A stretch of 64,000 bases of DNA from an uncultured Pelagibacteraceae bacterium (lineage in GTDB: Bacteria > Pseudomonadota > Alphaproteobacteria > Pelagibacterales > AG-422-B15): the NCBI GenBank assembly GCA_902544525.1, contig CACCCN010000001.1, positions 105,289-169,288 on the forward strand, given 5' to 3'. How positions within the stretch are numbered: the stretch's first letter is position 1; the number at the start of each line of letters is the position of its first letter. A model generated the notes under the pieces. It saw only the letters and a list, made by a program, of their open reading frames with translations, was not told where the DNA came from and made no database searches. Of the stretch, positions 31,737 to 64,000 are shown in pieces. Made by a program: the position numbers and the translations under genes.

Positions 31737-32642
31737 ATGAATAAAAATAATATCAATGCTGCAGCTTTTTTTATGATTATATCTGTTACAGGGTTTTCTA
31801 TAATGGATTTATCTGTCAAATGGACTACTGCAAGCTACCCTATTGGCGAAGTTATTTTTTTTCGCATGATTTTTGGCATTATACCTTTGGTATTTGTAGT
31901 TCCTAAAGAACGATGGAAAAACTTATTTGAAACCAAAAAGCCTGGTTTACACTTTGTGAGATGCTTTACAGGAACTTGTGCTCTTTTTGCAGTTTATGCA
32001 TCACTTCATTATTTACCATTAGCTCAAACAGTCTCACTAACTTTTGCTTCACCAATATTTTCAACTATTTTGTCTATTTTTATATTGCATGAAGCAGTGC
32101 GCCGAAGACGTTGGATGGCGATAATTTTAGGTTTTTTTGGAGTGTGTGTTCTTGTTAACCCTTTTTCAACTTCTTTTTCGATATACATGATACTGCCACT
32201 AATTTTTTGCTTTTTCTTTGCCATGGTATCAATATCAATTCGTAAACTGAGTGAAACTGAGCCAACTTACTTAGTTGCTCTTTATTTTACAATTTTTGGA
32301 ATTATAGCCTCACTCATTACCATTCCATTATTTGGTGCCTGGAAAATACCTACATCTACTTTTGACTTATTTATTTTGTTATGTGTAGGGGTCTCAGGTG
32401 GAATTGGTAACTTGGCTTTAACTGCCGCATTTAAAAATGCTGAGGTTTCGATTGTTACTCCACTAAAATATTTAAGTCTTATTTATGCTGTAATTTTTGG
32501 ATACTTAATTTGGGGTGAAATACCTACTTGGAATACTTATGTAGGCGCAATCCTAATTGTTATTTCATCTTTGATTATTTTAAGAAGAGAAACAGTTTTG
32601 AAGAAAAATATACAACCAGAAACTTTGGCTGTTAATCGTTAG
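31737..32642 (+). CDS. DMT-superfamily (EamA) transporter
   Basis: A 301-residue protein with about ten hydrophobic helices in two EamA repeats (roughly residues 8-145 and 150-290). SIMDLSVKWTTASYPIGEVIFFRMIFG near the start and VSIVTPLKYLSLIYAVIFGYLIWGEIPTWNTYVGAILIV near the end are typical of the RhaT/EamA group. Substrate unknown; such exporters often move amino acids or metabolites. It overlaps the convergent hydratase gene by 11 bases. Confidence 0.85.
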   Translation: MNKNNINAAAFFMIISVTGFSIMDLSVKWTTASYPIGEVIFFRMIFGIIPLVFVVPKERWKNLFETKKPGLHFVRCFTGTCALFAVYASLHYLPLAQTVSLTFASPIFSTILSIFILHEAVRRRRWMAIILGFFGVCVLVNPFSTSFSIYMILPLIFCFFFAMVSISIRKLSETEPTYLVALYFTIFGIIASLITIPLFGAWKIPTSTFDLFILLCVGVSGGIGNLALTAAFKNAEVSIVTPLKYLSLIYAVIFGYLIWGEIPTWNTYVGAILIVISSLIILRRETVLKKNIQPETLAVNR

Positions 32643-33417
32643 TCCATTCAGGTTTTCTTTTTTCTAAAAAAGAACTTATACCCTCGTTAGCATCGTTTAA
32701 TTCAAGGTTTTTAACCATATTGTCACTTGTAACGGCATACGCATCAGTGAGTCCCATTTCAATTTGTCGATAGAAACTTCTCTTTCCCTGTGCTATTACT
32801 TCTGCAGATTTATCGTTAATTTCAGCACACACTTTTTCAACTTCAGAGTCTAATTCTGCATCATTAACTACCTTATTAATTAAACCAATTTTTTCAGCTT
32901 TTGAAGAGTTAATCAATTGTCCGCTCAAAAGCATTTCCATAGTTGCTTTACGACCTACCGATCTTGAAACAGCAACTTGTGGTGTATGACAAAATAACCC
33001 AATATTTGCACCAGGTAATGCGTACCGAGAATTTTCTGAACCATAAGCAAGATCACATGAGGCTACTAGCTGCGCACCTGCGGCAGTGCCTACTCCTCGA
33101 ACTTTAGCGATTACAGGTTTAGATATTTGTTGGATTTGCTTCATCATCTTAGAGCATTGAGCAAACAATTTTTGTTGAGCCTCTACATCTTTATCGCTCA
33201 TCATACCTTTAACTTCTGTCAAGCTATGTCCTGAGCAAAATATTTTTTCGCTAGCAGATTCAAAAACAATTACTCTAATAGATGGATTTGTATCTATGTC
33301 AGTAAGCTCTGTTTGAATAGCAGTCATCATCTCAGTTGATAAGCTGTTGGCAGGATTATCGTTTAATTTCAAATAAGAAATATATTCTTTGTCAGTTCTA
33401 ATTAATTTTTCTGTCAT
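32632..33417 (-). CDS. Enoyl-CoA hydratase/isomerase family protein, ECHDC3-like
   Basis: A 261-residue crotonase-fold protein. Seen: FCSGHSLTEVKGM and KVRGVGTAAGAQLVASCDLAYGSENSRYALPGANIGLFCHTP, which supply the oxyanion hole, then GRKATMEMLLSGQLINSSKAEKIGLINKVV and the C-terminal FLEKRKPEW. This sequence pattern is closest to human ECHDC3. The Glu residues that hydrate enoyl-CoA are not obvious, so the reaction is uncertain. It lies at the edge of the catabolic island and could process a CoA intermediate downstream of GcdH. Confidence 0.8.
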   Translation of the reverse strand: MTEKLIRTDKEYISYLKLNDNPANSLSTEMMTAIQTELTDIDTNPSIRVIVFESASEKIFCSGHSLTEVKGMMSDKDVEAQQKLFAQCSKMMKQIQQISKPVIAKVRGVGTAAGAQLVASCDLAYGSENSRYALPGANIGLFCHTPQVAVSRSVGRKATMEMLLSGQLINSSKAEKIGLINKVVNDAELDSEVEKVCAEINDKSAEVIAQGKRSFYRQIEMGLTDAYAVTSDNMVKNLELNDANEGISSFLEKRKPEWTND

Positions 33418-33424
33418 TTAAATT

Positions 33425-34774
33425 CTACAAATAAAAATCGTATTCCTCTTTTGGTATAAATGTGGAGTTATATAAATCTTCTTCTCCTCTTTTAACAGAA
33501 GGATAAAGTTTAAGATAGTTTTCTCCAAAATATTCTTTAAGAATTTTTGAATTTTCAAATCTTACTAGGGAATTTTCTAATGATGAGGGGATCTCTGGAT
33601 CTGCTTCGGCCTCAATACCAGCATTAGAGCCATATTCTATGAAATGGGTTGGTTGTAATTTATTGGTTATTCCATGATGTACACCAGCTAGAATACTCGC
33701 AAGAGTCAGATACGCATTTGCATCTGCTGAAGCCACTCTATGCTCAATCCGTCTGGCTTCATCTTTTCCAGAAGGTATTCTTAAAGCAACAGTTCTATTG
33801 TTATAACCCCAAGATTTATTCACTGGAACAAATTGGTCTGGCTTGATTCTTCTAAAACCATTTCTATTAGGGATAAAAATAGAAAAACTATCATATAAGG
33901 TTGATTGCATACCAGCAATTGTGTGTTTTAACAATTCACTCCCGAGTTTATCGCCATTAGAAAATAAATTTTTACCATTCTCATCATACATAGACATATG
34001 AATGTGCATACCACTACCTGTTTGTTCAAGAAATGGTTTGGCCATAAATGTTGCTTCATATCCATGACTCAAAGTAGTTTCATGAATAACTCTTCTTAAT
34101 AAGGATGCATCATCTGCAGCTTTTAATAAATCACTGGTATGTGACAAATTAATTTCATATTGACCAGGAGCAAATTCACTAGTTGTAGTTGAAGCGGGTA
34201 TATTTTGAATTTTACAATTATGATTTATTTCTTCTAAAAGTTTTTTAAAAAGGTCAAGTTCACGTATTCCATAAACATGAGTTTTGTCTGTTCCAGCGGC
34301 TGGTTCTGGTTTTCCTAATTGATCTTTTTCTTTATTCACTAGATAAAATTCAAGTTCAAATGCAACAACTGGCTTCAAATTAATGTCGTCAAACCGTTTT
34401 AAGATTGAAGCAAGCATATTGCGAGGATCTAGTATTGAAGGATTTTTTTCTTCATCACACATAGACACTAATATTTGTAAAGTATTATTACTCCATGGAA
34501 CTTTTTTTAAGGTATTAGCTAAGGGAAAGAATAGCCCATCAGGGTCTCCATCTGCCCAGCCCAACAACATTGTGTTAGTAACACCACCAAGTGCATCTAG
34601 ATAAAAAGCCGAATATGGCAGCTGGAAACCATCTTTAAATATTTTTTCAACTTCACTTGTTGGAAACCTTTTGCCCCGTACATAGCCGCATAAATCAGTA
34701 AAAATTGCATCTACATATTCAATATTTTGTTTTGTTAATAATCCATCTAATTCAGATTTTTTAGCAATTTCCAT
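33425..34774 (-). CDS. puuA: Glutamine-synthetase-family ligase, probable gamma-glutamylpolyamine synthetase (PuuA-like)
   Basis: A 449-residue GS-fold ligase that is not a housekeeping GlnA: the N-terminal beta-grasp (YVDAIFTDLCGYVRGKRFP) is PuuA-like, and the adenylylation Tyr region is missing. Metal and ATP motifs visible: VAFELEFYLV, TSEFAPGQYEINLSHTS, GSGMHIHMSMYD, and RIPSGKDEARRIEHRVASADANAYL. PuuA joins glutamate to putrescine; relatives act on other amines, including methylamine or ethanolamine. It follows the Rieske-less gene (15 bases) on the same strand, so the two may act on one substrate. Exact amine unknown. Confidence 0.7.
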   Translation of the reverse strand: MEIAKKSELDGLLTKQNIEYVDAIFTDLCGYVRGKRFPTSEVEKIFKDGFQLPYSAFYLDALGGVTNTMLLGWADGDPDGLFFPLANTLKKVPWSNNTLQILVSMCDEEKNPSILDPRNMLASILKRFDDINLKPVVAFELEFYLVNKEKDQLGKPEPAAGTDKTHVYGIRELDLFKKLLEEINHNCKIQNIPASTTTSEFAPGQYEINLSHTSDLLKAADDASLLRRVIHETTLSHGYEATFMAKPFLEQTGSGMHIHMSMYDENGKNLFSNGDKLGSELLKHTIAGMQSTLYDSFSIFIPNRNGFRRIKPDQFVPVNKSWGYNNRTVALRIPSGKDEARRIEHRVASADANAYLTLASILAGVHHGITNKLQPTHFIEYGSNAGIEAEADPEIPSSLENSLVRFENSKILKEYFGENYLKLYPSVKRGEEDLYNSTFIPKEEYDFYL

Positions 34775-34788
34775 ATTATAATACTTAC

Positions 34789-35883
34789 TTAAGTAAGTTC
34801 CCTAATATGATTTTGTAAATGATCTAAATAAAACTTTTGGTAATGAATAAGGCTCGTTTCAAGATCACCATATTTACCAGGTTGATAAGCTCGACTCTCT
34901 ATGCCCTTTTGATTCATTTCACAAAGCTGTGAGTCTTCTATAGATGTTTGGTTCCATAAAAAAATCATTTTTTCTATATCAACTTCAGCATCTTTATGCG
35001 TTACCCAATATTGCGTAACGATTGTTTTATTTTGACTTATAGGAGAAAACAAAAATAAAATTACAAATTCATTATTTGCTACAAAGCTATTGAATGGGCT
35101 AAATCCAATAGCAGTATACCCATTATCTGGTCCGATAGTTTTAAAATCTCCCATCAAAGATGAACATGAATAACTTCCATCCATAGTCTCTGATTTTATG
35201 CCATTAGGAAGTGGGGTTCTCTCAGCTATTCTAAAATATTTATCTGTCTCTTCATTGTATTCACCAACAAATAAGCCTTTGCTTTTAGTTTCTAAAGTCC
35301 AATCTTTTATTCTTTGAGTTAATTCTGGGGACTCAATTCCTGAACCCACTCCCGCTCCATATGAATTACAATATTCTTCTCCATGAACACTTAAATAATC
35401 TTTATGAGTAAATTCACCCCCCCAACAATGCGCACACTCTTTAAAGTTATGAATTGTTGCTAAATGTGAGGCGTTAAATACAAAATCTTTTTTGAAAGCA
35501 ATCTTACCATCATTAAGGCCATGCATCTTAATATATGGCTCTAATGGCTTTATAAACTCGTCGAAAGAATGTGGTAACTCAGATAAGTTTATAAAAACTA
35601 AGCTTTCATACACTTTCAGATGACAATGTATCTTAGGTTTTGATGCTGAGATTGATAGACTTCCATTATGAAGTTTCTTTATTTCAATATAGCTATCGTT
35701 ACACTGATATGAAAAAACATGACTTTCATCAAAATAAGATAAATGGGTTAAGAATACCCATTGTTTTTTAAACATAGCTTCATAACTAAGGTTAAACAAA
35801 TCTTTGTTTGTAAAGAATTGCTGGTCCATACCTGCGTTTGGATCCTGCTTTTCAATTAAATTTCTAATATTTGGTTTAATCAT
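34789..35883 (-). CDS. Ring-hydroxylating oxygenase alpha-subunit homologue lacking the Rieske domain
   Basis: A 364-residue paralogue of the complete oxygenase at 42.9 kb. The two align along their whole length (YEAMFKKQW, HLKVYESLVFINLSE, FDEFIKPL, IHNFKECAHC, FSPFNSF, TSIEDSQLCEMNQKG). Between DSYIEI (residue 64) and HLKVYE (residue 88) it has 24 residues where the paralogue has 72; the missing 48 contain both Rieske ligand pairs (CTHRG and CPYHAW). The mononuclear-iron domain is kept in outline: Glu149 and His152 in NFKECAHC and the Asp in SIEDSQ remain, but the second His is eight residues on (His160) rather than five. It may draw electrons from the Rieske centre of another protein, or may be non-catalytic. 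Divergent from the amidase gene. Confidence 0.8.
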   Translation of the reverse strand: MIKPNIRNLIEKQDPNAGMDQQFFTNKDLFNLSYEAMFKKQWVFLTHLSYFDESHVFSYQCNDSYIEIKKLHNGSLSISASKPKIHCHLKVYESLVFINLSELPHSFDEFIKPLEPYIKMHGLNDGKIAFKKDFVFNASHLATIHNFKECAHCWGGEFTHKDYLSVHGEEYCNSYGAGVGSGIESPELTQRIKDWTLETKSKGLFVGEYNEETDKYFRIAERTPLPNGIKSETMDGSYSCSSLMGDFKTIGPDNGYTAIGFSPFNSFVANNEFVILFLFSPISQNKTIVTQYWVTHKDAEVDIEKMIFLWNQTSIEDSQLCEMNQKGIESRAYQPGKYGDLETSLIHYQKFYLDHLQNHIRELT

Positions 35884-35935: not shown

Positions 35936-37426
35936 ATGAGTGATTTTGACCTAGAGATTTGTTATTTATCAGCTACAGAAGCCTTAAAAAAATTTAGAAG
36001 TAAAACCTTGTCTCCAGTAGAACTTCTATCGGAAATAAAAAAAAGAACTGAAGATGTAAATCCAAAAATAAATGCATTCAATTTTTATCGATTTGAAGAG
36101 TCTTTTAAAGAAGCAAAAGAAGCTGAAAAAAAATATTCTCAAAATAAAGAAACTTTACCACTTGAGGGAATACCACTGGCAATAAAAGATGAAGTTAATA
36201 TAAAAGGGCAGCCTAATAAAAATGGAAGTTTAATTTTTAAAGATTATATCGCAGAGAAAACTGATATTGATGTTGAGTCATTGGTCAATTCCGGCGCCAT
36301 AATACATGGACGTACTACAAATCCAGAGTTTTCTCTAACATCTTTCTGTCATTCGGAAGTTAACGGTGTGACAAGAAATCCATGGAACTTAGACATGACA
36401 CCGGGAGGATCAAGTGGTGGAAGTGCTGCAACATTAGCTTCGGGCTGTACAACTTTAGCAACAGGAAGTGATATTGGTGGTTCAATTAGAATCCCTGCCT
36501 CAGCTTGTGGTGTGGTTGGATACAAACCACCTTTTGGAAGGAACCCTCAAAGTGCTCCTTATAATATTGATCAGTATTGTGTGATTGGACCTATGGCGCG
36601 TACAGTTTCAGACTGTGCATTAATGCAAAATATGATGTGTAAAGCACATCCAAAAGATATTTCAAGTTTACGACCTGCGATTTCATTGCCACTTGATTAT
36701 GAAAATATTAAGGGATGGAAAGTTGCTTTCTCGATGGATCTTGGATATTTTGAAGTTGATCAAGATGTCCAAAAAAATACTCTTGAGTCTCTAGAAAAAT
36801 TTAAGTCATTAGGTGCATCGGTAACTGAAGTTAAGTTAAATTGGAAAAAGCAAGAGATTGAATCTGCATGTTACAGCCACTATGCAAATATTTTCGCAAG
36901 ATCGGTTGCTAATTTATTACCTGAACATGAAGAAAAGTTGACAAGCTATGCATTAATGAATGCAAAGTCAGCTGAAGTTCACGCAAAAGCAATTGCCGAA
37001 AATCGGGAGGAGTTTTATCCGGAGCTTGGAGCCACGCTAGGATATTCACCTCTTAAATGTGGCGAAATAGCAGGTAAAATGTATGATGAATTAGGCCCAA
37101 TACTTGATGATTACGATATATTTATATGTCCTGCAAATAATTTACCCGCTGTAATGGCTGATGTGGATTTATTGAATGATCCTGTTGTAATTAACGGAAG
37201 AGAAGTAACAGGTCGAGATATGGGTTGGACTATGGCATATCCATTTAATATGCTTGGTAGACTGCCAGTAATAAGTGTTCCATCAGGTTTTGCCTCAAAT
37301 AAAGTTCCAACAGGAATACAAATTATAAGCCGTTCTTATTCTGACAATTTGGTTTTTCAGGCCGCATATAATTATGAAAAAGCTGAACCTTGGCTTTACA
37401 AGGATAAAAATCGGCCAAAAATATAA
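35936..37426 (+). CDS. Amidase-signature family amidohydrolase
   Basis: A 496-residue member of the amidase-signature family. The Ser-cisSer-Lys catalytic set is visible: Lys84 in PLAIKDEVN, Ser in TPGGSSGGSAATLASG and the nucleophile region GSDIGGSIRIPASACGVVG. It hydrolyses a C-N amide bond; the substrate is unknown. It is not GatA because no gatB or gatC is near and the C-terminus differs. Upstream of potD on the same strand and divergent from the Rieske-less gene, it probably releases ammonia or a carboxylate from the imported compound or a gamma-glutamyl intermediate. Confidence 0.85.
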   Translation: MSDFDLEICYLSATEALKKFRSKTLSPVELLSEIKKRTEDVNPKINAFNFYRFEESFKEAKEAEKKYSQNKETLPLEGIPLAIKDEVNIKGQPNKNGSLIFKDYIAEKTDIDVESLVNSGAIIHGRTTNPEFSLTSFCHSEVNGVTRNPWNLDMTPGGSSGGSAATLASGCTTLATGSDIGGSIRIPASACGVVGYKPPFGRNPQSAPYNIDQYCVIGPMARTVSDCALMQNMMCKAHPKDISSLRPAISLPLDYENIKGWKVAFSMDLGYFEVDQDVQKNTLESLEKFKSLGASVTEVKLNWKKQEIESACYSHYANIFARSVANLLPEHEEKLTSYALMNAKSAEVHAKAIAENREEFYPELGATLGYSPLKCGEIAGKMYDELGPILDDYDIFICPANNLPAVMADVDLLNDPVVINGREVTGRDMGWTMAYPFNMLGRLPVISVPSGFASNKVPTGIQIISRSYSDNLVFQAAYNYEKAEPWLYKDKNRPKI

Positions 37427-37527: not shown

Positions 37528-38616
37528 ATGCTAAAATACAATGAAATTAAAAGTTTTTTTGTAAAAGCTTTGATCGTGCCTCTTTCAGTATTTTTTATTG
37601 CTGGAGTAGTTTCGACAAATAAAGCTTTTGCAGATGAGCCTGGATCAGTTTTTCTATGGGGTGGATACGACGATGATGGACTGTTTGGAACATATGCAGA
37701 AGAACATGGATCTCCTGAATACTCTACATTTGGCGATGCAGAAGAAGGTTTACAAAAATTAAAAGCGGGTTTTGAAGTAGATTTAGCTTGGCCGTGCCAA
37801 GGTGAAATAGCTCGTTGGGTAAGAGCTGGAGTGCTTGAACCACTAGACACATCACGTATTGATAACTGGAATGATATGTTCCCAGAGGTAAGAGACCTAC
37901 CAAGCGGTATTGTTGATGGTCAGAATTATTTTGCACCAATCGATTGGGGCGATACAACTTTATTCTATATGCCTGATCGAGTTACATGGATGAATGCAGA
38001 CAATGAAAGTTTTTCTCTAATGGAAGACCCGAGAGTAAAAGGTAAAGTCGGAATACTTGACTCAGCTGCAGACTCATTATTCTTGATGATGCATCACTTA
38101 GGAATTGATATCAGAGAAAAAGATCAATTAACCAAAGCTGCTATTGATCAAGGTATCGCCAAGTTTCGTGAAATGAGAGACAACGGCCAGATCCGTGCAT
38201 TCTTTGGAGATACTTCTTCAATGGTAGAAGCATTGGGTAACGAAGAAATAGACGTTGCTCTTGGATGGAATGAAATTGCATGGAATGCTGGAGCAAAAAT
38301 GATGCAGCCTGCAAATGGAACAATGACATGGGCTTGTGGCCTAGCGATTGTTAAAGGCGCAGACCTTGATAAAGCATACGCAATGATTAATGGAGCTACT
38401 AGCGCTGAAACTTCAGCTTACTTACTAAGTGAGTGGGGTTATGGACACTCTAACAAAGCTGGCTTTAGTACATTAACTGCTGATGAATTAGCTGAGCGTG
38501 GTGTCGCTGCAAATCCTGCAACACACCTTTCAAATGGAATGTTCTCAGTAATGCCTTCAGACGAAGTAACTGACTACATGGAAGCTCAGTGGGCTGAAAT
38601 GGTAGCTGGAGGTTAA
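37528..38616 (+). CDS. potD: ABC transporter periplasmic binding protein, PotD (spermidine/putrescine) family
   Basis: A 362-residue periplasmic binding protein. Residues 1-36 are a long signal peptide (FVKALIVPLSVFFIAGVVSTNKAFA) followed by the mature start DEPGSVFLWGGYDDDGLF. The PotD-type fold is indicated by DLAWPCQGEIARWVRAGVLEPLDTS, APIDWGDTTLFYMPDRV, GKVGILDSAADSLFLMMHHLGID and VDVALGWNEIAWNAG. It delivers substrate to the PotABC complex encoded convergently just downstream. Aromatic and acidic residues fit a cationic amine, but the ligand cannot be named. Confidence 0.87.
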   Translation: MLKYNEIKSFFVKALIVPLSVFFIAGVVSTNKAFADEPGSVFLWGGYDDDGLFGTYAEEHGSPEYSTFGDAEEGLQKLKAGFEVDLAWPCQGEIARWVRAGVLEPLDTSRIDNWNDMFPEVRDLPSGIVDGQNYFAPIDWGDTTLFYMPDRVTWMNADNESFSLMEDPRVKGKVGILDSAADSLFLMMHHLGIDIREKDQLTKAAIDQGIAKFREMRDNGQIRAFFGDTSSMVEALGNEEIDVALGWNEIAWNAGAKMMQPANGTMTWACGLAIVKGADLDKAYAMINGATSAETSAYLLSEWGYGHSNKAGFSTLTADELAERGVAANPATHLSNGMFSVMPSDEVTDYMEAQWAEMVAGG

Positions 38617-38640
38617 TAAGCAACTAAGCTTAACTAAATT

Positions 38641-38675
38641 AAATAGCCTGTCTCCGTTAAGAGGACAGGCTATTT
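38641..38675. terminator. Bidirectional terminator between potD and potA
   Basis: AAATAGCCTGTC (38641-38652) pairs perfectly with GACAGGCTATTT (38664-38675), an 11-base loop between, flanked by T-rich sequence on the plus strand and by A-rich sequence that reads as T on the minus strand. It serves the potD transcript and includes the potA stop codon (38670-38672), so it probably ends both convergent transcripts. Confidence 0.8.
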
Positions 38676-39752
38676 TTTATTCAAAATAGAAATATCTTCT
38701 AAACTAATACTTATGAAACATTCATTGTCAGCAAATGACTGATTGTCAAAATGCTGAGAAGAAACAGTTATTACCTTATCTATTCCTTTGGCTTCAACGT
38801 AAAATCTCGTCATTTCTCCAAGATATGATGTCTGACGAATTTTTGCCTCTAGACATATATCCCAATCTGATTTGACTTTAGAAATCATCATTGACTCAGG
38901 TCGAACACTACAAACAACATCCGAAGAGTTTTCCGCAATATTCAAATTATTTTTTATTTTAAATTCCCCTAATCCTTCGATTGAAGCATTGATAAATTCT
39001 CCTTCACTAGATTTTGTCATTACTTTAAGAAAATTTGTTTCACCAATAAAGTCACTAACAAATATGTTTTCGGGATTTTTATATAATTCATTGGGTGCTG
39101 ATAGTTGTTGAATTTTTCCATTATTCATTACTGCTACTCTATCTGACATACTGATAGCCTCTTGTTGATCATGAGTAACAAACACAAAGGTAATTCCGAT
39201 ATTTTTTTGCAGAGTTCTTAATTCTAGCTGCATTTCATCTCTTAATTTTTTATCCAAAGCACCGAGTGGTTCATCTAATAAAAGCACCTTTGGTTGCCTT
39301 ACTAAAGCTCTTGCGAGTGCAACACGTTGCCTTTGACCCCCAGATAACTGATTACTAAATCTTTCTTCATATCCCTCAAGCTTAACTAAAGTTAAAACAT
39401 CCTTAACCCGATTATTTATTTCATCATTACTTAAACCAAGTTTTCTGAGTCCGAACTGGATATTTTTTTCTACATTTAGATGAGGAAAAATTGCATAATT
39501 TTGAAAAACCATATTTGTTGGTCTTTTATCTGGTGACAATTCAGTAATATCTACTCCATCAATAAACAGATTCCCTGTTGTTGGATATTCAAAACCTGCC
39601 AAGAGTCTCAATAAAGTTGTTTTGCCACAACCAGAGGGCCCTAATAGTGAAAAAAATTCACCTTCTTTAATTTCAAATGAAACATCATCTACTGCTTTTA
39701 CATCAGCAAAATGTTTTGAAATATTATTAATTTGTATAAATGAGTTATTCAT
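38670..39752 (-). CDS. potA: ABC transporter ATP-binding protein, PotA type
   Basis: A 360-residue ATPase of the spermidine/putrescine importer group. Walker A GPSGCGKTTLLRLL (residue 38 on), Q loop NMVFQNYAIFPHL, signature LSGGQRQRVALARAL, Walker B LLLDEPLGALD and the H loop THDQQEA are all present. A C-terminal TOBE domain (about residues 270-355) follows. Last gene of the minus-strand operon after potB and potC; its stop lies within a terminator hairpin. Confidence 0.93.
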   Translation of the reverse strand: MNNSFIQINNISKHFADVKAVDDVSFEIKEGEFFSLLGPSGCGKTTLLRLLAGFEYPTTGNLFIDGVDITELSPDKRPTNMVFQNYAIFPHLNVEKNIQFGLRKLGLSNDEINNRVKDVLTLVKLEGYEERFSNQLSGGQRQRVALARALVRQPKVLLLDEPLGALDKKLRDEMQLELRTLQKNIGITFVFVTHDQQEAISMSDRVAVMNNGKIQQLSAPNELYKNPENIFVSDFIGETNFLKVMTKSSEGEFINASIEGLGEFKIKNNLNIAENSSDVVCSVRPESMMISKVKSDWDICLEAKIRQTSYLGEMTRFYVEAKGIDKVITVSSQHFDNQSFADNECFISISLEDISILNKK

Positions 39753-39758
39753 AATTCC

Positions 39759-40568
39759 TTATAAGTTTATACCTATATCTTTCTTTGCTTTTCCTTGGCC
39801 AAGATTTCTTAACCAGAATGCTAACAAAACAATAAAAGTAGTAAATACTAAAATTACCGCACCCAAAGCTAGCACATGTGGCAATTTCTGAACGAATCTC
39901 ATCTGGCCCCACATATACATGGGCAATGTTGCATCGCTTCCAGTCAAAAAGAATGCAAGAATAAATTCATCAAAAGATATAATAAAGCTTAGCAGAAGAG
40001 CTGCAACTATTCCTGGTAAATATAATGGAAATGAAACACGATAAAACGTTCCCCAGGCGCTCTCGCCTAAATCTCTAGAGGCTTCTTCAAGAGAAAAATC
40101 AAAGCCCTCAATCCTTGCTATTAAAATTAGCATTGCAAAAGGTGTACAAAATAATATATGTCCAATTGTTACAGGAACTAGTCCTAATTTAAATCCAAGA
40201 TTGATCCAAATTATAAGCAAAGCTACAGCTAAGATAATTTCAGGTATCAAGAATGGCATCATGATAGCTCCGTAAGAGACTTTTTGTCCTCTAAATTTGT
40301 AACGAGCAAATGCCTTTGCTGCAAAAAGTGCAATTACTGTACTTACAACACTAGCGACCACTCCTACTTTTATACTAGCCCACAAAGCTTTATGAAGATT
40401 TCTTTTTGACCACATCTCTTCATAATGTTCTGTTGTAAATCCAGCAAGAGGAAAAGACATATAATCTGCATCATTAAAACTAAATAGAGGCAAAAATAAA
40501 ACTGGCACATACAAAAATGCAAAATAGATTAAGGTATAAATAAGTAATGAGTTATTTTTTTCGTTCAT
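39759..40568 (-). CDS. potC: ABC transporter permease, PotC type
   Basis: A 269-residue inner-membrane permease with six helices. The EAA loop for contact with PotA is EEASRDLGESAWGTFYRVSFPLYLPGI. FILAFFLTGSDATLPMYMWGQMRF is typical of PotC-like subunits. It follows potB by one base and precedes potA. Confidence 0.92.
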   Translation of the reverse strand: MNEKNNSLLIYTLIYFAFLYVPVLFLPLFSFNDADYMSFPLAGFTTEHYEEMWSKRNLHKALWASIKVGVVASVVSTVIALFAAKAFARYKFRGQKVSYGAIMMPFLIPEIILAVALLIIWINLGFKLGLVPVTIGHILFCTPFAMLILIARIEGFDFSLEEASRDLGESAWGTFYRVSFPLYLPGIVAALLLSFIISFDEFILAFFLTGSDATLPMYMWGQMRFVQKLPHVLALGAVILVFTTFIVLLAFWLRNLGQGKAKKDIGINL

Positions 40569-40569
40569 T

Positions 40570-41454
40570 TTAAGACAATCTCTGCGTAAGTCGTTTTGTT
40601 ACGTTCGAAACAATGATTGTTATGATAGCAACAGTAGTTAACATAATCGTCGCTGATGCAGCGCCAAGTGGAATATTGTTTGCTTTACCAAAGTAAGCTT
40701 GGATCATATTAGATAACATTCGTCCATCCGTTCCACCAAGTAAAGCTGGTGTAACATAATCTCCAACTGTTGGAATAAAGATGATTAAAATCGCGCCAAT
40801 CACTCCTGGCAATGAAAGGGGGAAAGTAATCTTCCAGAATACCTCAAATCGAGACAGCCCTAGATCTCTTCCTGCTTCAATTAATGAAAAATCAATTTTT
40901 TCTAAGGAAACATATAACGGCAGCAGTGCAAACGCAGCCCATGCATGAGTAAGGGTGATTACTACAGCAGTTTCAGAATACATTAGAAACGTAAGTGGCT
41001 CACTTAGTAGACCGGCGTTAATCAATGAAGAATTAATAACTCCTTTCGTCCCTAGTATAATTTTCCAAGAAAAAACTCTTAATAAATAAGAGGTCCAAAA
41101 AGGCAAAGTTAATAGAACAAGCCATAGCATTTTGTTCTTTTTGACATAAAAAGCTATGTAGTAACAAACAGGATATGCCGTAATAAGAGTAATTAAGGTT
41201 ACTAGAAATGATATTTTAACTGACTTAATTAGAAGCGTGACTAATAAATTTTTTTGAAAAAAATCAATATATCTTTGAAAGGTAAAAGAGAAATCAATCT
41301 CCATCATACTTACTTGAGTAAAAAAACTAAAACTCAACATAAGCATCATTGGAACTAGCATTGCTACAGCAACTAGAATTAGCGCCGGCGATAAGAGAGA
41401 ATATGCCTGTGTATTTTCACTTTTAGCATATAATTTTCGCCAGGACTGTAACAT
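40570..41454 (-). CDS. potB: ABC transporter permease, PotB type
   Basis: A 294-residue inner-membrane permease with a long periplasmic loop after the first helix and the EAA loop EAGRDLGLSRFEVFWKITFPLSLPGV. FIPTVGDYVTPALLGGTDGRMLSNMIQAYF is a PotB/PotC signature region. First of potB-potC-potA; preceded by the FAD oxidoreductase gene on the same strand, from which it is separated by 36 bases. Confidence 0.92.
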   Translation of the reverse strand: MLQSWRKLYAKSENTQAYSLLSPALILVAVAMLVPMMLMLSFSFFTQVSMMEIDFSFTFQRYIDFFQKNLLVTLLIKSVKISFLVTLITLITAYPVCYYIAFYVKKNKMLWLVLLTLPFWTSYLLRVFSWKIILGTKGVINSSLINAGLLSEPLTFLMYSETAVVITLTHAWAAFALLPLYVSLEKIDFSLIEAGRDLGLSRFEVFWKITFPLSLPGVIGAILIIFIPTVGDYVTPALLGGTDGRMLSNMIQAYFGKANNIPLGAASATIMLTTVAIITIIVSNVTKRLTQRLS

Positions 41455-41490: not shown

Positions 41491-42846
41491 TTAAATTTCT
41501 TTTTTACTTTTATCTGTAAAATTAGAATACCATAGGTAAATTCTAAGATACCATAACCTTAAAAACCCGAAAGGTATTTTTGGTGATAAGCCTTGGTACA
41601 CTTTTGAAATATTTGTTTCACCGCTATTAGATTCATAAATCATTTCTGCTAGTTTCTTGCCACAATAAACAGTCGTATTGTTGCCGTTAGCATGATAACC
41701 ATAGGAAAAAAATACAGACTTGTCATTCTCGAGATTTCCAAATGCTGGTACAAGATCTCGGTTCATTACAACTGTGCCCCTCCAGTAATATTCGATATCG
41801 ATGTCATTCCAATTAGGGAATACTCCTCGAAATTGATTAGTCATTATCCCTCTCATTTTTAATGCGCTTTTTTCGTCACCAAAAGTATCACCACGAGTTC
41901 CAAAAAGCATTCTATTAGATGGCATTCTTCGGTAATAATACAAAATCTCTCTTGAGTTACAAATTGGATTTAGCGTTTTATAATTTTGCATCTTAAATTC
42001 ATCTTCACTCATTTCTCTTGTAACAATAATATTTGATAAGACTGGAACCATCCTATTAGCAAAACTTAGATGCAATGACTCATCAGTATAACCATTAGTC
42101 GCAACAACGACCTTGTCACAAGTTAAAGATCCTTCTTCAGTTATTAGCTTATGTTTACCATTTCTCTCCCACTTTTTTACTCTTGAGTGAGAATGAAGTT
42201 GCGCTCCAGCGTCAACTGTGGCATTAGCAAATCCATTTAAAAATGCCATTGGATTCATTGCAAATCCAGCTTCAGTAAATACTGCACCAAATTGTTCCGT
42301 GGATTGATGGCCAATTTCATCAAACTCTTCTTTTGGAATCCATTTTGTATTAATACCAAAATATTTTTGCAAATCGTTTCCCCATTCTTTCATTTCCTCA
42401 CTACTACTTGGGTGGTGAGCAACATCAAGATTACCTGTACCTATTTTTTCACACTCAATATTATTATCGGCTATTAACGAGGCAAGAAGATCAACTCCTT
42501 CAATTTGAGATGCAAAAAACTTTTTAGTTTCATCCATACCAAATTTTTTGATTAGTTGATTAATTGATAATTTAGTTGCTGGAAGACAGCAAAAGCCAGC
42601 ATTTCTGCCGCTACTTGCAAATCCAAAATGACCAGCTTCAAGAAGCCTTACATCTCCTCCATATTTTTTTGCGATATGATAGGCAGTGCTAATTCCTGTG
42701 AAACCACCACCAATAACACAAACATCACATGAATGATCACCAACTAGTTTTGGAAATCGGGCTTGATCAACGTGACTTACTTCTTCCCAATAACTTTTAA
42801 TAGGCGTACTAAAGTCATAGATCGCTTTATCATACAATTGCTTCAT
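41491..42846 (-). CDS. FAD-dependent amine oxidoreductase, PuuB/DAO family
   Basis: A 451-residue D-amino-acid-oxidase-fold flavoprotein. The FAD loop is VCVIGGGFTGISTAYHIAK (residue 42 on), followed by LLEAGHFGFASSGRNAGFCC, the typical PuuB-like substrate loop, and a C-terminal FSYGYHANGNNTTVYCGKKLAEMI. PuuB oxidises gamma-glutamylputrescine to the aldehyde, releasing ammonia and hydrogen peroxide; relatives oxidise sarcosine or other secondary amines. The pot genes directly downstream and the PuuA-like ligase nearby support a gamma-glutamyl amine or N-methyl amine substrate. Confidence 0.8.
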   Translation of the reverse strand: MKQLYDKAIYDFSTPIKSYWEEVSHVDQARFPKLVGDHSCDVCVIGGGFTGISTAYHIAKKYGGDVRLLEAGHFGFASSGRNAGFCCLPATKLSINQLIKKFGMDETKKFFASQIEGVDLLASLIADNNIECEKIGTGNLDVAHHPSSSEEMKEWGNDLQKYFGINTKWIPKEEFDEIGHQSTEQFGAVFTEAGFAMNPMAFLNGFANATVDAGAQLHSHSRVKKWERNGKHKLITEEGSLTCDKVVVATNGYTDESLHLSFANRMVPVLSNIIVTREMSEDEFKMQNYKTLNPICNSREILYYYRRMPSNRMLFGTRGDTFGDEKSALKMRGIMTNQFRGVFPNWNDIDIEYYWRGTVVMNRDLVPAFGNLENDKSVFFSYGYHANGNNTTVYCGKKLAEMIYESNSGETNISKVYQGLSPKIPFGFLRLWYLRIYLWYSNFTDKSKKEI

Positions 42847-42861
42847 AAGACTATTCTAGAA

Positions 42862-44100
42862 TTATGGTAACTGCATATTGGTAAAATACCAATCATAAAA
42901 ATATGTAACTGCAGATTCATTTTCAGATAAAACCCCTGGGACAAAGGAGTGAGAAAGAACACCTTTCTGATTATTTTCTATAATAGTCGTATCCTCTTGA
43001 GTTGTGATATCCCAAATAAAAGTAATATCATCGGCTTTATAATCTTTATCCTCTATCGCATCTTCATTTACTAGCCAGATAAGTTCAACTTCGGACTCAA
43101 GAATTGCATTAGGTTTAAAAATAAACATAACACCAAAATCATTAGTAAAATAACAGCAGCCGAAAGGGTTAAAGCTTACCTGTGATAACCCACCATCAAA
43201 ATCTTTGAATTTACCCATCAATTTTGAAGCTGGTTTACCATCTTTGGTCTGAGACAGATGGCCATTACCAATTGGTGTACGATCAAAATATCTGTTTAAA
43301 CCTTGCTTTAAACCTTCCTCTGTTTCAAGGTAGGTATCTGAAGGTATGCCTTTTTTCCTGCATTCTTCAACCCAGGGTCTAATTTTCTCTAAATATTCAT
43401 CAGTATCTTTTTGAGGCGCAGTTCCCAATCCTGCCCCCATTGTGAATACCCAATCTTTTTCGTGAATTGCACTAAGTTCAGAGTGAGCAGGGCCACAATG
43501 ATAACACTCTTGAAAGTTTTCTAATACTAATTTGAAGTTCGCTTTTGTTGGATATTTCTTACGAGCAGCAATTTTAGATTTTCCTGTATTATGAAAATTT
43601 AGTATTTCTTTTAATGGTAAAATAAATTCATCAAAATCCATGGGAGACTCCATAGAAAGATTTATAAAAATAAGTCCCTCAAAAATTTTCAGATGACATT
43701 CTCTTAGTCCATTTTCACTTTTATTAAAGTCATCAGGCATGTGGCGTGCTGCTTTAAGCTCGCCCTCTGATGAAAAGCTCCATGCATGATAAGGGCAAAC
43801 TAGAAGTTTTTTTGACCCTTCTTCATCTAAACATATTCTTGAGCCGCGATGAGTACAAACATTATAAAAAGCTCTAACTTCATTATCTCTACCACGAATA
43901 ATAATTATTGACTCTTTTTCAGCTTCAAAAACAAAATAGTCCCCAGGATTTTTTATTCGCGTAACGTGATCGACCATTAACCATTGTTTGAAATAAATAG
44001 CTTTCATCTCATCAGTAAAAATACTTTCGTCTGTGTAGAAATCTTGTGGAAGCGTTTTGCCTTCTTGATAGCTTTCTTTGTATTGGCTAAATGAATTCAT
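42862..44100 (-). CDS. Rieske non-heme iron oxygenase alpha subunit
   Basis: A 412-residue oxygenase of the ring-hydroxylating/GbcA-type family. The Rieske [2Fe-2S] ligands are Cys82/His84 in CTHRG and Cys102/His105 in CPYHAW. The mononuclear iron site is NFQECYHCGPAH (Glu198, His201, His206) with the distal Asp in TTQEDTTIIENNQKG. Relatives hydroxylate rings or remove N-methyl groups as from glycine betaine or carnitine-like substrates. No reductase gene is adjacent. The start at 44100 overlaps the aminotransferase stop as TAATG; an upstream in-frame ATG at 44121 lies inside that gene and is less likely. Confidence 0.9.
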   Translation of the reverse strand: MNSFSQYKESYQEGKTLPQDFYTDESIFTDEMKAIYFKQWLMVDHVTRIKNPGDYFVFEAEKESIIIIRGRDNEVRAFYNVCTHRGSRICLDEEGSKKLLVCPYHAWSFSSEGELKAARHMPDDFNKSENGLRECHLKIFEGLIFINLSMESPMDFDEFILPLKEILNFHNTGKSKIAARKKYPTKANFKLVLENFQECYHCGPAHSELSAIHEKDWVFTMGAGLGTAPQKDTDEYLEKIRPWVEECRKKGIPSDTYLETEEGLKQGLNRYFDRTPIGNGHLSQTKDGKPASKLMGKFKDFDGGLSQVSFNPFGCCYFTNDFGVMFIFKPNAILESEVELIWLVNEDAIEDKDYKADDITFIWDITTQEDTTIIENNQKGVLSHSFVPGVLSENESAVTYFYDWYFTNMQLP

Positions 44101-45503
44101 TAATTTGAACTTGATGACCAAAGACCTTCTTTTTTTATATCATCAGTAGCATTTTCAATACCTTTTCTCAAAATAGCCACCAAGTCATCTATCTGCTCTT
44201 TAGTAATAATTAGAGATGGTGACATTACACAAGTACTAAATAGTGGTCTTACAATTAGTCCAAGTTGTTGGCAATGTTCATTTATTCTTGAACCAATCTC
44301 ATAGGATAAATTTAGCGGATCTTTCTTATCTTTATTTCCAACACATTCTACTGCCGCCATTAGACCTTCTCCTCTTACTTCACCAACAATTGGGAGATCA
44401 GTCAATTCTCTTAATCTACTTTGAAAATATGGACCAACTTCTTTTACATGTTCTAAAAGATTAGTTTTTTCCATATAATCTAGTGTAGCACTAGCGGCGG
44501 CCATGCTTACTGGATGGCCTGAATCTGTGAATCCGTTTGAAAAAATCACTTTTTCTTTATTGTCTAATTGAGACATTAATTTTTCTGAGATCACAACGGC
44601 GCCACACGGCACATATCCAGATGTAATTCCTTTAGCTAGTAAAATTATATCAGGCGTGAAATCAAAGTAGTTTTCTGAGGCAAATATATGGCCTAATCTT
44701 CCAAATCCCGTAACAATCTCATCTGAGATATAAAGTACATCATGCTTTTTACAAACTGCATGAGTTTTCTTGTGATAACCTTTTGGAGGAACAATAACTC
44801 CACCTGAAGCAAGAATCGGTTCTGCAATAAATGCGGCAACTTTATCAGACCCCAGCTCTAATATCTTATCTTCCAGTTCTTTAATCTTTAAATCACAAAA
44901 CTCGTCATCAGTTAAATCGTCTGGTTTACGAAATGGATTTGGAGAAGAAATATGATGAACAATATTAGTTGCAAAATCAAAATTATTCTTATCTCTTTCC
45001 TTGCCTGAACATGAAGCTCCTAAGAATGTGCTTCCATGATATCCATCATGTCTTGAAATAATTTGTTTTTTTTCTCTTCTTCCACATACATTATTATAAA
45101 ACATAACAAAACGTAAGGCGGAGTCTACTGCCGAGGAACCACCTGATGTAAAGAAAACTCGCTTTAAATCACCAGGAGCATATTTAACTAGTCGGGCTGC
45201 ATAGTTATGAGCTATCTCTGTAGACTCAGTGAATGGGCTTGCATAAGGCATTTTTGTAATCTGCTCATAAACTGCATCTGCAATTTCTTTCACCCCATGA
45301 CCAACATTAACATTCCACATCCCGCCAGGACCATCTATTAATTTTTTTCCAGTTTTATCGTATAAATAGATTCCATTTGATTTTTCAATAAATGTACGAT
45401 CATCCTCGCCTCTGTATTCTAGATACTGCCAAGGATGCAAGATCCTATCGTCTAGCGTATTAATTAAGTCTTTAGATGGTATTTGTGGTGTTGATTTAGG
45501 CAT
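44100..45503 (-). CDS. Class-III aminotransferase (omega-amino acid/polyamine type)
   Basis: A 467-residue PLP fold-type I aminotransferase. Seen: GGMWNVNVGHG, FTSGGSSAVDSALRF (phosphate loop), ISRHDGYHGSTFLGAS, IAEPILASGGVIVPPKGY, the Asp in YISDEIVTGFGRLG, and the Schiff-base Lys in LLAKGITSGY. These fit omega-amino acid:pyruvate or putrescine-type enzymes that make an aldehyde from a terminal amine. Its promoter has -10 TATAAT five bases before the ATG and a TetR-type palindrome over the -35. It heads a second transcript in the island: aminotransferase-Rieske-DAO-potBCA. Confidence 0.9.
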   Translation of the reverse strand: MPKSTPQIPSKDLINTLDDRILHPWQYLEYRGEDDRTFIEKSNGIYLYDKTGKKLIDGPGGMWNVNVGHGVKEIADAVYEQITKMPYASPFTESTEIAHNYAARLVKYAPGDLKRVFFTSGGSSAVDSALRFVMFYNNVCGRREKKQIISRHDGYHGSTFLGASCSGKERDKNNFDFATNIVHHISSPNPFRKPDDLTDDEFCDLKIKELEDKILELGSDKVAAFIAEPILASGGVIVPPKGYHKKTHAVCKKHDVLYISDEIVTGFGRLGHIFASENYFDFTPDIILLAKGITSGYVPCGAVVISEKLMSQLDNKEKVIFSNGFTDSGHPVSMAAASATLDYMEKTNLLEHVKEVGPYFQSRLRELTDLPIVGEVRGEGLMAAVECVGNKDKKDPLNLSYEIGSRINEHCQQLGLIVRPLFSTCVMSPSLIITKEQIDDLVAILRKGIENATDDIKKEGLWSSSSN

Positions 45504-45508
45504 ACATC

Positions 45509-45537
45509 ATTATAGCCGAAATTGAATAGCTATTCAA
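45509..45537 (-). promoter_or_regulatory. Promoter of the aminotransferase-Rieske-DAO-potBCA operon, leaderless
   Basis: On the minus strand TTGAAT (45537-45532), exactly 17 bases, then TATAAT (45514-45509). Five bases later comes the ATG (45503). There is no room for a ribosome-binding site, so the mRNA would be leaderless. The -35 hexamer is inside the operator palindrome. Confidence 0.75.
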
Positions 45538-45538
45538 T
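45521..45538. promoter_or_regulatory. Operator palindrome ATTGAAT-AGCT-ATTCAAT
   Basis: An 18-base perfect palindrome covering the -35 box of the promoter for the aminotransferase gene. The same half-sites with the same four-base gap occur in the tetR intergenic region at 49944-49963. A third copy of the half-site ATTGAAT starts at 45540. A bound TetR dimer here would block RNA polymerase. Confidence 0.7.
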
Positions 45539-45570
45539 AATTGAATTAAAGAAAAGTAATCAATTTTTGG

Positions 45571-46770
45571 CTATTCATATAGATCAGCAGGAACTTTATT
45601 CCTTCTTTCAGGGCTATAAAACTGTCTTTTAACAACCTTGCATTTTGCCCAAATTTTTCGATACTCAATTTCTTCAGGATGATAAATTTCAGCAAAAATG
45701 TTATCTTTAATTTTTATTCCATATGGCCGTCTCAAGGAGGCAAGCGCTACATTTCTTTTCATTGTTGGACTCCACATTGCTGCTGTCACTATTCCAATAT
45801 CTTCTTTTTTTGAATTATAAATAACTGAACCATGAGCAGGCTTATCTCCATCTATATCTAAACCAACTAAACATCTTTCAGTTGAGCCCATCTCTTTTTC
45901 TTTTTTAAGCGCTTTCTTGCCAATGAAGTAATTTTTTTTCTTGAAATGAACTAACCATCCCATACCTATTTCATAAGGTGATCTCATTCTTACTGGTCTT
46001 AATGCATCCTCTGCTGCCATAAAGTCTGTATTAGTTTGAATAAATCCAGCTTCAATTCTTGTCATTTCAAGTGCATTCATTCCAAAGGGTCTGATTTTTA
46101 GATGTTTACCCGCATCGAAAATAGCATCCCAAGTAGCCTCAGCATTTTTTGGATCAATCCATAACTCATAGCCTAAATCACCAGTAAAGCCTGTTCGAGA
46201 TATTAGAACATTATTGCCATCAATATTAAACTCTTTCATTTCAAAAGGTGCCAAAGACTCTAATCCTATCGCACCATAATTCTTTAAGGTAGAGCAAGAT
46301 GTTGGACCTTGTAAAGATAGTGCTGCGATTGTATCGGTTACATCCTCAATTTTAACATTGAAGCCCTCAGCTGAGTCATTTAACCAGTTGTAAATTTTTA
46401 CAGCACAACAAAGCATAAATTTATTGGATGAGTATTTAAATATTGTACCATCATCAATCACTTTACCATCTTCATTACACCATATAATATATGCAACAGT
46501 ATTATCTTTCATTTCTGATAAATCTCTAGTTACTAGGTAATCAGAAAAAGCATGTGCTTCCTCTCCAGTGATTTCATATTTACCCATTGGGGTTAAATCC
46601 ATAACAGAAGTGCCATTTCTCGCGGCAGTGTATTCAAGTTCAACTGTTGAATACTCAGTAGGAACCGTAAAACCATTCCAAGTATACCAATGGTTTGTAC
46701 GTGAAGCTAAACTTGTTCGTGAATGGAATGGGGTTTTCTTAAGTGCAGAATATCTTAAATCAATAGCCAT
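45571..46770 (-). CDS. GcvT-family aminomethyltransferase/demethylase
   Basis: A 399-residue folate-binding protein of the GcvT family. It has ARNGTSVMDLTPMGKYEITG, the catalytic Asp pair in EDGKVIDDGTIFKY, LSLQGPTS, SRTGFTGDLGYELWI, RPFGMNALEMTRIEAGFIQTNTDF and a C-terminal barrel. True GcvT acts with GcvH and GcvP; none is nearby. Related stand-alone proteins (DmdA, dimethylglycine/sarcosine demethylation domains) pass methyl groups to tetrahydrofolate. It abuts the FAD oxidoreductase gene without a gap, so a partner role in N-demethylation is likely. Not called gcvT for this reason. Confidence 0.8.
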   Translation of the reverse strand: MAIDLRYSALKKTPFHSRTSLASRTNHWYTWNGFTVPTEYSTVELEYTAARNGTSVMDLTPMGKYEITGEEAHAFSDYLVTRDLSEMKDNTVAYIIWCNEDGKVIDDGTIFKYSSNKFMLCCAVKIYNWLNDSAEGFNVKIEDVTDTIAALSLQGPTSCSTLKNYGAIGLESLAPFEMKEFNIDGNNVLISRTGFTGDLGYELWIDPKNAEATWDAIFDAGKHLKIRPFGMNALEMTRIEAGFIQTNTDFMAAEDALRPVRMRSPYEIGMGWLVHFKKKNYFIGKKALKKEKEMGSTERCLVGLDIDGDKPAHGSVIYNSKKEDIGIVTAAMWSPTMKRNVALASLRRPYGIKIKDNIFAEIYHPEEIEYRKIWAKCKVVKRQFYSPERRNKVPADLYE

Positions 46771-48282
46771 CTACAAATCCCCTAGGACTACTTTTGCAGC
46801 ATTTTTTCCTGAAATTCCGTGCATTCCGCCGCCAGGGTGCGTGCCCGCACCACACATGTATAAACCATCTAAGTGAGTTTTATATTGAGCCGCTCCTGGG
46901 ATAGGCCGAAGCATGAATAGTTGATCTATTTGAATTTCGCCATGATGCCAATGACCTCCCGACACATGGTAATTCTTTTCTAAATCATCAGGGGTAATGA
47001 GTGTCTTACTGTCAATGCAGTTTTCAATATTGTTAGCATATTTTGATATTATTTTAATTATTGAGTTAACATAATCATCTTTAATATTTTCCCAGCCTCC
47101 ATGGGCTTTATATGGTGCATACTGAACTTGAATATCTAGAGATGGATTTTCATTATTATTCTTTAAACATATTTCAAGAACTGGCTCTGAAGATAATTTA
47201 TCAAATTTACTTGGGTTAAAATTTTCTTCAATGTAATCAATTGATGGCGATATTACCATGCGGCTGTTTAAATCATCATTATTACATTCATTAAATTCTG
47301 GAATCTTATTTAACTTAAGCGAGAGTTTTGCAACGCGACCTTTTGATCTATGATGTTTAATTCTTCTTTTCACATCCGTATCAAGATTCTGCGAACCAAG
47401 AAGACTTGAATAAGTTGAACGCGGATCAGCATTAGAAATAATAGTTTTTCCAAAAACTTTTTCACCGTTATGAAGCTCGACTCCAATGGCTCTATCATTT
47501 TCTATTAAGCAATTTTTTACAGATGCTGAGGTTTTTATTTCAACATTATTTTTACTACATTTATCAAGAAGAACTGAGATGAATTTATTTGATCCTCCTT
47601 CTATTTCGTAAATACCGCCAAAAAGAGAATTGCCATGGATAGCCATTCTATATAATAGGTTAATCAAAGATCCCGGGGATCTTGGACCTAAGTTTGATCC
47701 TAATACTGCATCATGAGCTATAAGCCCTTGGAGAAGAACACTTTCAAAATTATCTTCAAGCTCATCAGCAATATTTAACCCTATCATTCTTGCGAATTCA
47801 TTAAATCTTTTCTTACCCATCATTCTTACATTAAATCCTAATTTAAAAAGTTTTAGGTAATCAGAAAAACTATTATTCATAACTCGTGGGGGCGGATCCA
47901 TCATAAATCCCCCAAGTGTTTTTGAGAACTGTGTCATTTTATTATCAAATTCAAGATATCGATCAGCATCTTGAGTAGAAAAATTTGAAATCGTTGCATG
48001 ATCAATATGCTGATTGCCTATAAGTCGAATGTGTCTGCCAGACTCAGAAAGGGCGATAGAGCCTTTCGGGTTATATTGAAGATTCAATCCGCCAATAGAC
48101 TGCGTAACGCTATTGGGTATTGAAGGTATATAATTTATTATTTCATGATTTGCTAAGCCACCACATGTTTCTCGTGCTTCACAAATCAAAACTTTTTTAT
48201 TTTTTTTGGCAATAATATTTGCGCACACAAGTCCATTATGTCCTCCACCAATTATGATGGCGTCATATTTTTTTTCCGACAT
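46771..48282 (-). CDS. CrtI/PYROXD2-like FAD-dependent oxidoreductase, second copy
   Basis: A 503-residue flavoprotein with the FAD loop DAIIIGGGHNGLVCANIIAKKNKKVLICEA at the N-terminus and the C-terminal LYMCGAGTHPGGGMHGISGKNAAKV, as in phytoene-desaturase-like (PYROXD2) proteins. In bacteria outside carotenoid clusters these have no firm function. It is a paralogue of the gene directly upstream, with which it overlaps as TAATG, so the two may form a heteromer. It lies against the GcvT-family gene. Confidence 0.8.
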   Translation of the reverse strand: MSEKKYDAIIIGGGHNGLVCANIIAKKNKKVLICEARETCGGLANHEIINYIPSIPNSVTQSIGGLNLQYNPKGSIALSESGRHIRLIGNQHIDHATISNFSTQDADRYLEFDNKMTQFSKTLGGFMMDPPPRVMNNSFSDYLKLFKLGFNVRMMGKKRFNEFARMIGLNIADELEDNFESVLLQGLIAHDAVLGSNLGPRSPGSLINLLYRMAIHGNSLFGGIYEIEGGSNKFISVLLDKCSKNNVEIKTSASVKNCLIENDRAIGVELHNGEKVFGKTIISNADPRSTYSSLLGSQNLDTDVKRRIKHHRSKGRVAKLSLKLNKIPEFNECNNDDLNSRMVISPSIDYIEENFNPSKFDKLSSEPVLEICLKNNNENPSLDIQVQYAPYKAHGGWENIKDDYVNSIIKIISKYANNIENCIDSKTLITPDDLEKNYHVSGGHWHHGEIQIDQLFMLRPIPGAAQYKTHLDGLYMCGAGTHPGGGMHGISGKNAAKVVLGDL

Positions 48283-62288: not shown

Positions 62289-62402
62289 AAGATCTCCCCT
62301 TAAGTAATTTTAAGAACTAAAATATAGATATAATTTGTAGTAAGATATAATTATCTATGACAAATTAAATTGTGTAACAAAAGTTGGGGATATCTTTTAC
62401 TT

Positions 62403-62443
62403 AGCAGGCCCCAAATAAATTAAGGGGAGTATTGAGGCCTGCT
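62403..62443. repeat. Inverted repeat between the two amt genes
   Basis: AGCAGGCC (62403-62410) pairs perfectly with GGCCTGCT (62436-62443); inside, CCCC and GGGG can extend or form a nested stem. It lies 18 bases downstream of the second amt stop. No T run follows on the minus strand, so it is not a classic terminator; it may be an mRNA 3' end structure or an attenuator before the first amt gene. Confidence 0.6.
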
Positions 62444-62460
62444 GTTTATTAACGGAAGGG

Positions 62461-63729: not shown

Positions 63730-64000
63730 TATTTTCTCCGTTAAGTTAATTTTTGAAGTCTGATCATTTCTGTTTAAATGTATGTTCTCAATTGAGATTG
63801 CCTGCCAGCTTGTCATCTAAATTTCAATTTTTAGAACTAAACTTCCTCAGACTCATTAAAAAATCCATATTTTTCAATACTTGTTAGCGATTTGATAATT
63901 TACACAATTTGTCAATTTAGCTTTATTTACCCACAGGTTTATAAAATACTTTAACGAATTATTCGAAGCTATTTTTGCCAAGTTGTCATATGTATTTAAA
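63730..64000. other. Non-coding window end upstream of the second amt gene
   Basis: 271 AT-rich bases hold the second amt ribosome-binding site and presumably its promoter. I find no open frame of note, no sigma-54 TGGC-N8-TTGC pattern and no clear hairpin. The open frame extending the amt upstream (to 63816) seems to be non-coding. Confidence 0.5.

Follow-up and report, generated by a model that had tools for sequence, protein, structure and literature searches.

A Rieske-less oxygenase gene and its neighbours

The window examined in this study, that is, the whole stretch of DNA analysed, spans 64,000 nucleotides from an uncultured Pelagibacteraceae bacterium (AG-422-B15) and corresponds to positions 105,289-169,288 of the forward strand of contig CACCCN010000001.1 (assembly GCA_902544525.1). 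The source genome, a member of the Pelagibacterales (SAR11), is an incomplete draft of 1.26 Mb. On the minus strand at 34789..35883, the window carries a gene with an ATG start that encodes a 364-residue oxygenase alpha subunit without a Rieske domain, here designated S. A complete sister oxygenase of 412 residues, designated F, is encoded 7 kb away on the same strand (42862..44100).

The gene that always follows S, 14 bases downstream, is a glutamine-synthetase-like gene (33425..34774, minus strand), and an enoyl-CoA hydratase family gene (32632..33417, minus strand) is third in the operon; these three genes were fixed in all loci long enough to be judged. Transcribed divergently from S is an amidase gene (35936..37426, plus strand), beyond which lies a polyamine-type ABC transporter (37528..41454) with its binding protein on the plus strand and its ATPase and two permeases on the minus strand. 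An FAD amino-acid/amine oxidase gene (DAO; 41491..42846, minus strand) adjoins F, and the rest of the F operon (44100..49910, minus strand) encodes a class-III aminotransferase, a GcvT-like methyl-group enzyme and two CrtO-like FAD oxidoreductases. S and F thus sit in different operons. The gene order is constant, running aminotransferase-F-FAD oxidase-PotB-PotC-PotA, then the binding protein and amidase on the opposite strand, and then S-glutamine synthetase-like-enoyl-CoA hydratase. F was present at every S locus with enough upstream DNA (29/29).

The GcvT-like protein of the F operon is related to trimethylamine-N-oxide demethylase. Together with the transporter, the FAD oxidases, the aminotransferase and the glutamine-synthetase-like ligase, it points to the breakdown of N-methyl compounds, and the cluster probably acts in methylated-amine breakdown. 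A comparison with the substrate literature on homarine and glycine betaine gave no match. Related clusters in other Alphaproteobacteria (L134, L136) have one complete oxygenase. The two CrtO/phytoene-desaturase-like FAD proteins of the window (46771-49910) are adjacent to each other and lie beside the GcvT-like gene in an apparent amine catabolic operon, and this adjacency is kept in L134 and L136. Elsewhere in the window (61008-63816) are two tandem ammonium-transporter-like genes, which by eye resemble paralogues.

Domain structure of S

The primary structure of S was compared with that of F. Pfam searches of F identified both PF00355 and PF00848, with Rieske ligands C82, H84, C102 and H105 and an iron site of E198, H201, H206 and D370; its match to GbcA-like proteins scored 288 bits, which is below the cut-off of 670. 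An earlier note on this DNA had described S as an oxygenase with its Rieske domain cleanly removed, and had proposed HMM searches as a check. In S and in all 21 of its aligned relatives, only the catalytic domain PF00848 was found, and none of them gave a Pfam match to a Rieske domain even at E<=10. S therefore has no PF00355, and the Cys2His2 ligands expected of an N-terminal Rieske domain fall in a deleted block. When 39 distinct S and 29 distinct F sequences were aligned together, exactly 48 residues proved to be gone from S, the number given in the note, although they form two blocks, corresponding to F 74-113 (40 residues) and F 125-132 (8 residues). The first holds all four Rieske ligands. 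Besides these blocks, a few scattered residues also differ between S and F in this alignment.

The removal is less complete than the note implied. The cluster-binding subdomain has been deleted at residues 74/75 and 84/85 of S, but the beta strands that flank it persist in the predicted model (pLDDT about 85-94 over residues 41-120; 78-94 over residues 1-100). Residues 1-88 (35620..35883, minus strand) represent an N-terminal helix and the kept beta-sheet base of the Rieske domain. The best structural matches of the S model were 3n0q and stachydrine demethylase (TM 0.72-0.73).

Distribution, selection and origin of S

S was found in 43 of 53 genomes of one GTDB family of SAR11, most of these 43 being separate single-cell or metagenome assemblies. 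S and F occurred together in 35 of the 53, the co-occurrence that the note had proposed to look for, with S alone in 8, F alone in 4 and neither in 6; many of the 53 genomes are only 50-90% complete. S was absent from the 344 other Pelagibacterales genomes searched, had no match elsewhere in the class among the sampled genomes at a strict cut-off of E<=1e-60, and was not found outside its family in a total sample of about 1,100 genomes. Among the oxygenases whose sequences were checked in the class and the phylum (two samples of about 400 genomes each), there were no other Rieske-less relatives. The median dN/dS, calculated from pairs with dS between 0.05 and 1.2, was 0.065 for S and 0.040 for F.

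Since the same architecture is found in 43 genomes, it did not arise by chance, and S is a real and conserved Rieske-less oxygenase paralogue under strong purifying selection. That S is instead an assembly artefact, a pseudogene or a decaying duplicate has next to no probability; this reading is refuted by dozens of separate genome assemblies that show one and the same deletion, by frames free of internal stops and by the dN/dS of 0.065. No homologue with a full Rieske domain, which the note had named as the mark of an assembly error, was seen at the S locus.

S and F are only 32% identical. In a maximum-likelihood tree based on all columns they form sister clades whose union is supported at 100/100, and we regard their homology across the full length as certain, in line with the end-to-end alignment described in the note. 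The same relationship was obtained at 100/100 with the catalytic domain alone, ruling out that the grouping is an artefact of the absent Rieske columns. The Rieske motif is kept in every related oxygenase that was checked from other Alphaproteobacteria and Pseudomonadota. Taking these results together, F underwent a duplication in this lineage, and the cluster was lost once, from one of the two copies.

A divergent genome of the family (G004) carries an S copy (L071:5490-6566) that is about 39-40% identical to S and has the same deletion along with a normal iron motif, ECYHCGPAH. Judged by these sequences, the single cluster loss predates the split of G004. In a comparison of the G004 cluster with that of the window, S is 39% and F 62% identical, while the two genes that lie downstream of S reach 86-87%. 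S and F are among the most divergent genes of this cluster, which fits a joint change of the two proteins in this one case. At the same locus the binding protein is also divergent and the amidase is missing, and the other cluster genes are mostly 70-87% identical to those of the window.

Iron site of S

The iron-site segment of S, NFKECAHCWGGEFTHK (residues 146-161; 35401..35448, minus strand), contains the cation-facing F147, the bridging E149, the Cys pair C150/C153, and two predicted Fe ligands, H152 and H160. The predicted third ligand, D317, is in the segment SIEDSQ (residues 314-319; 34927..34944, minus strand). All 39 distinct S sequences have N146, F147, E149, C150, H152, C153, H160 and D317. 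The Glu and first His (NFKECAHC) and the late Asp that the note had seen to be retained are therefore confirmed as E149, H152 and D317, and a loss of iron-site residues across the family, which the note had named as refuting its reading, was not observed. With invariant E149, C150 and C153 and a position as sister of F within GbcA/Stc2-like proteins, S belongs with the group V oxygenases.

On the other hand, the main S clade has a unique insert of three residues between the two Fe His residues, within W-G-G-E-F. As a result, H160 is found at +8 rather than +5 from the first His, just as the note had stated, and an invariant Glu (E157) occupies +5, the place of the usual second His. The fixed motif of this clade is ECAHCWGGEFTH. 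The putative 2-His-1-carboxylate site of S would consist of invariant H152, H160 and D317 within PF00848, with H-x7-H spacing in the main clade, whereas H-x4-H is found in all F, in the other oxygenases examined (including L119) and in the divergent S. The iron site may therefore be altered, and the shifted His casts real doubt on normal iron chemistry in S. The stem branch of the main clade corresponds to 1.2-1.3 changes per site in our trees, and the iron-site residues are invariant despite this length. The main clade, as reconstructed from these trees, changed fast and then settled on its motif.

We considered the possibility that S performs no oxygen chemistry and is a structural or regulatory alpha-prime subunit of F, or a ligand sensor that modulates the pathway. 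The lost Rieske domain, the insert among the iron ligands of the main clade and the long stem branch before that clade settled are all in accordance with such a role. A subunit of this kind would be expected to lose some of the iron ligands, the bridging Glu or the Cys pair; their invariance in 39 sequences counts against this explanation, which we consider unlikely but a serious rival.

The iron ligands of CntA, which we take to be H208, H213 and D323, align with H152, H160 and D317 of S, while F147, E149, C150 and C153 align with Y203, E205, C206 and C209. In CntA, Y203 is the aromatic residue facing the quaternary ammonium, E205 the bridging Glu, and C206/C209 the Cys pair (PMC7948474, PMC10952381). 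Electrons pass between subunits in this enzyme, whose metal centres are 44 A apart inside one subunit and 12.2 A apart over the subunit interface, and mutants of E205 lose activity and electron transfer with unchanged secondary structure (PMC7948474). An invariant bridging Glu on a subunit that has no Rieske cluster is best explained by a Rieske-bearing neighbour, and E149 is our main argument that S would face one.

A further possibility is that S no longer depends on a Rieske cluster. As a non-heme iron enzyme in its own right it would draw electrons from the substrate or from a small reductant, and it would work with the glutamine-synthetase-like enzyme encoded in the same operon. The ligand set of S would then have been rebuilt from H152, E157 and/or H160, and D317. 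The invariance of E157 at the second-His position in the main clade and the fixed operon with the glutamine-synthetase-like and enoyl-CoA hydratase genes agree with this proposal. So does the amidase, which appears with the altered motif and is lacking beside the divergent S of normal spacing (one case only). However, a bridging Glu would be useless in such an enzyme, yet it is invariant, and H160 stays aligned and invariant as well. We judge the proposal rather improbable, though still a serious rival.

The geometry of the iron site could not be read from the predicted structure. In AlphaFold models made at equal alignment depth, pLDDT of the iron loop was 35-39 in S and 23-31 in the complete control F; the control being equally or less confident at this loop, the model is uninformative on the iron geometry of S.

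Candidate electron sources

The note had drawn a parallel with NdmC, and had suggested that S might be a second such case, perhaps in a mixed trimer with its paralogue. NdmC of the Pseudomonas NdmCDE system is, like S, a catalytic iron domain without a Rieske cluster whose paralogues have one. In that system the Rieske domain that serves NdmC sits on the reductase NdmD, and the GST-like NdmE is required as well (PMC10380055). Concerning Rieske proteins, the source genome and 12 relatives have only F, one or two other oxygenases of 385-404 residues and the bc1 protein. Fer2 domains in the family members searched were confined to a small ferredoxin and a protein of NADH-dehydrogenase size, and the source genome has one FAD_binding_6 protein, a 236-residue relative of ferredoxin-NADP reductase. 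Searches for Rieske and Fer2 domains revealed no NdmD-type Rieske reductase or Rieske ferredoxin in the sampled family genomes, nor was a GbcB/CntB-like oxygenase reductase found in the family genomes searched.

With neither kind of reductase found, S cannot work as NdmC does, and an NdmC-type arrangement with the Rieske cluster on a reductase is excluded in the sampled genomes. What stands of the note's reading is a real and conserved Rieske-less paralogue that co-occurs with F and has an invariant bridging Glu. The source genome and relatives (L080:1054-1764, L091:1477-1797) have at least two Rieske oxygenases, but searches turned up no reductase dedicated to these enzymes. The oxygenases of these SAR11 bacteria are probably supplied with electrons by a general ferredoxin together with an Fpr-like reductase.

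The lack of an NdmD-type reductase or Rieske ferredoxin leaves F or an unlinked third oxygenase as the only plausible Rieske donor to S, and F is the most likely one. The third oxygenase (L078:1396-2547) is a GbcA-like protein of 383 residues whose neighbours, named by eye, are an ABC permease, a small SnoaL-like protein and an EamA-type transporter. Most of the genomes have no further Rieske protein beyond F, the bc1 protein and this oxygenase. S could in principle use the Rieske cluster of the third oxygenase, or accept electrons straight from ferredoxin. Given that the third oxygenase is unlinked and only 27% identical to F, while S is the sister of F and syntenic with it, we find this route very unlikely.

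A putative mixed oligomer of S and F

We tentatively favour, at somewhat less than even confidence, the interpretation that S is an iron-bearing subunit given electrons by F in a mixed oligomer. S is a duplicated group V (quaternary-amine type) Rieske oxygenase that lost the cluster-binding half of its Rieske domain and would have kept the mononuclear iron site. S and F would co-assemble head to tail, as a mixed trimer or as stacked trimers. The Rieske cluster of F, reduced by ferredoxin, would pass an electron via E149 of S to the iron of S, and S would oxidise a methylated amine or derivative, either the same intermediate of the shared gene cluster or a successive one. All of this, from iron binding by S and its assembly with F to the flow of electrons and catalysis, is inferred. 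Against this interpretation are the separate operons, the H-x7-H spacing and the Rieske region of F, whose conservation does not clearly exceed that in single-oxygenase relatives; extra conservation had been sought there as a sign of a second partner.

Inter-subunit electron transfer is a defining feature of Rieske oxygenases, and donor and acceptor are hard to separate in homotrimers. If our interpretation is correct, one of the ocean's most abundant bacterial groups would offer, in S and F, a donor-acceptor pair of natural origin. Between them, the divergent S, whose iron site is normal, and the main clade, whose His spacing contains the insert, provide a ready evolutionary test series. Should S prove non-catalytic, it would still be a well-conserved pseudo-subunit derived from an oxygenase.

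Comparison with known systems

The more specific arrangement would be a hetero-oligomer of two sister alpha subunits, one carrying both metal centres and the other only iron, so that one kind of Rieske subunit feeds two different active sites. Such a natural asymmetric oligomer, with the electron path between subunits isolated, we see as possible but somewhat doubtful. NdmC and a two-chain oxygenase from Micromonas are closest in design to S/F, and neither is the same arrangement. Like NdmC, S is a Rieske-less alpha subunit; unlike NdmC, it is a group V relative and the sister of its neighbour F, and it occurs in genomes where our searches found no NdmD-type partner reductase. In the chlorophyllide a oxygenase of Micromonas, Kunugi et al. 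(2013) reportedly placed the centres on different chains in a complementary split, whereas F keeps both centres, including its own iron site, and only S has lost one. The Micromonas system resembles the proposed S/F assembly in spreading a Rieske oxygenase over two chains but is eukaryotic. In Micromonas pusilla the two polypeptide chains have been suggested to form a heterodimer or a trimer of dimers (PMC9615114).

The group V enzymes CntA, stachydrine demethylase Stc2 and GbcA are the closest matches in fold and sequence and share the iron motif with bridging Glu and Cys pair, but each of their subunits carries a Rieske cluster, and their iron-site His residues are spaced H-x4-H. Both CntA and Stc2 form homotrimers, and CntA has a dedicated reductase. 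That a single Rieske oxygenase can contain two different alpha subunits has a precedent in the NdmA/NdmB-type alpha3-alpha-prime3 enzyme (reviewed in PMC12445004), but there both alpha subunits bear Rieske clusters. A search of largely open-access literature found no description of the S/F arrangement. Another alphaproteobacterium (G318) has a pair of complete group V oxygenase genes side by side on one strand, their open frames about 3 bases apart (L128:9764-12430), and the products of this pair possibly form a hetero-oligomer in which both Rieske clusters have been kept.
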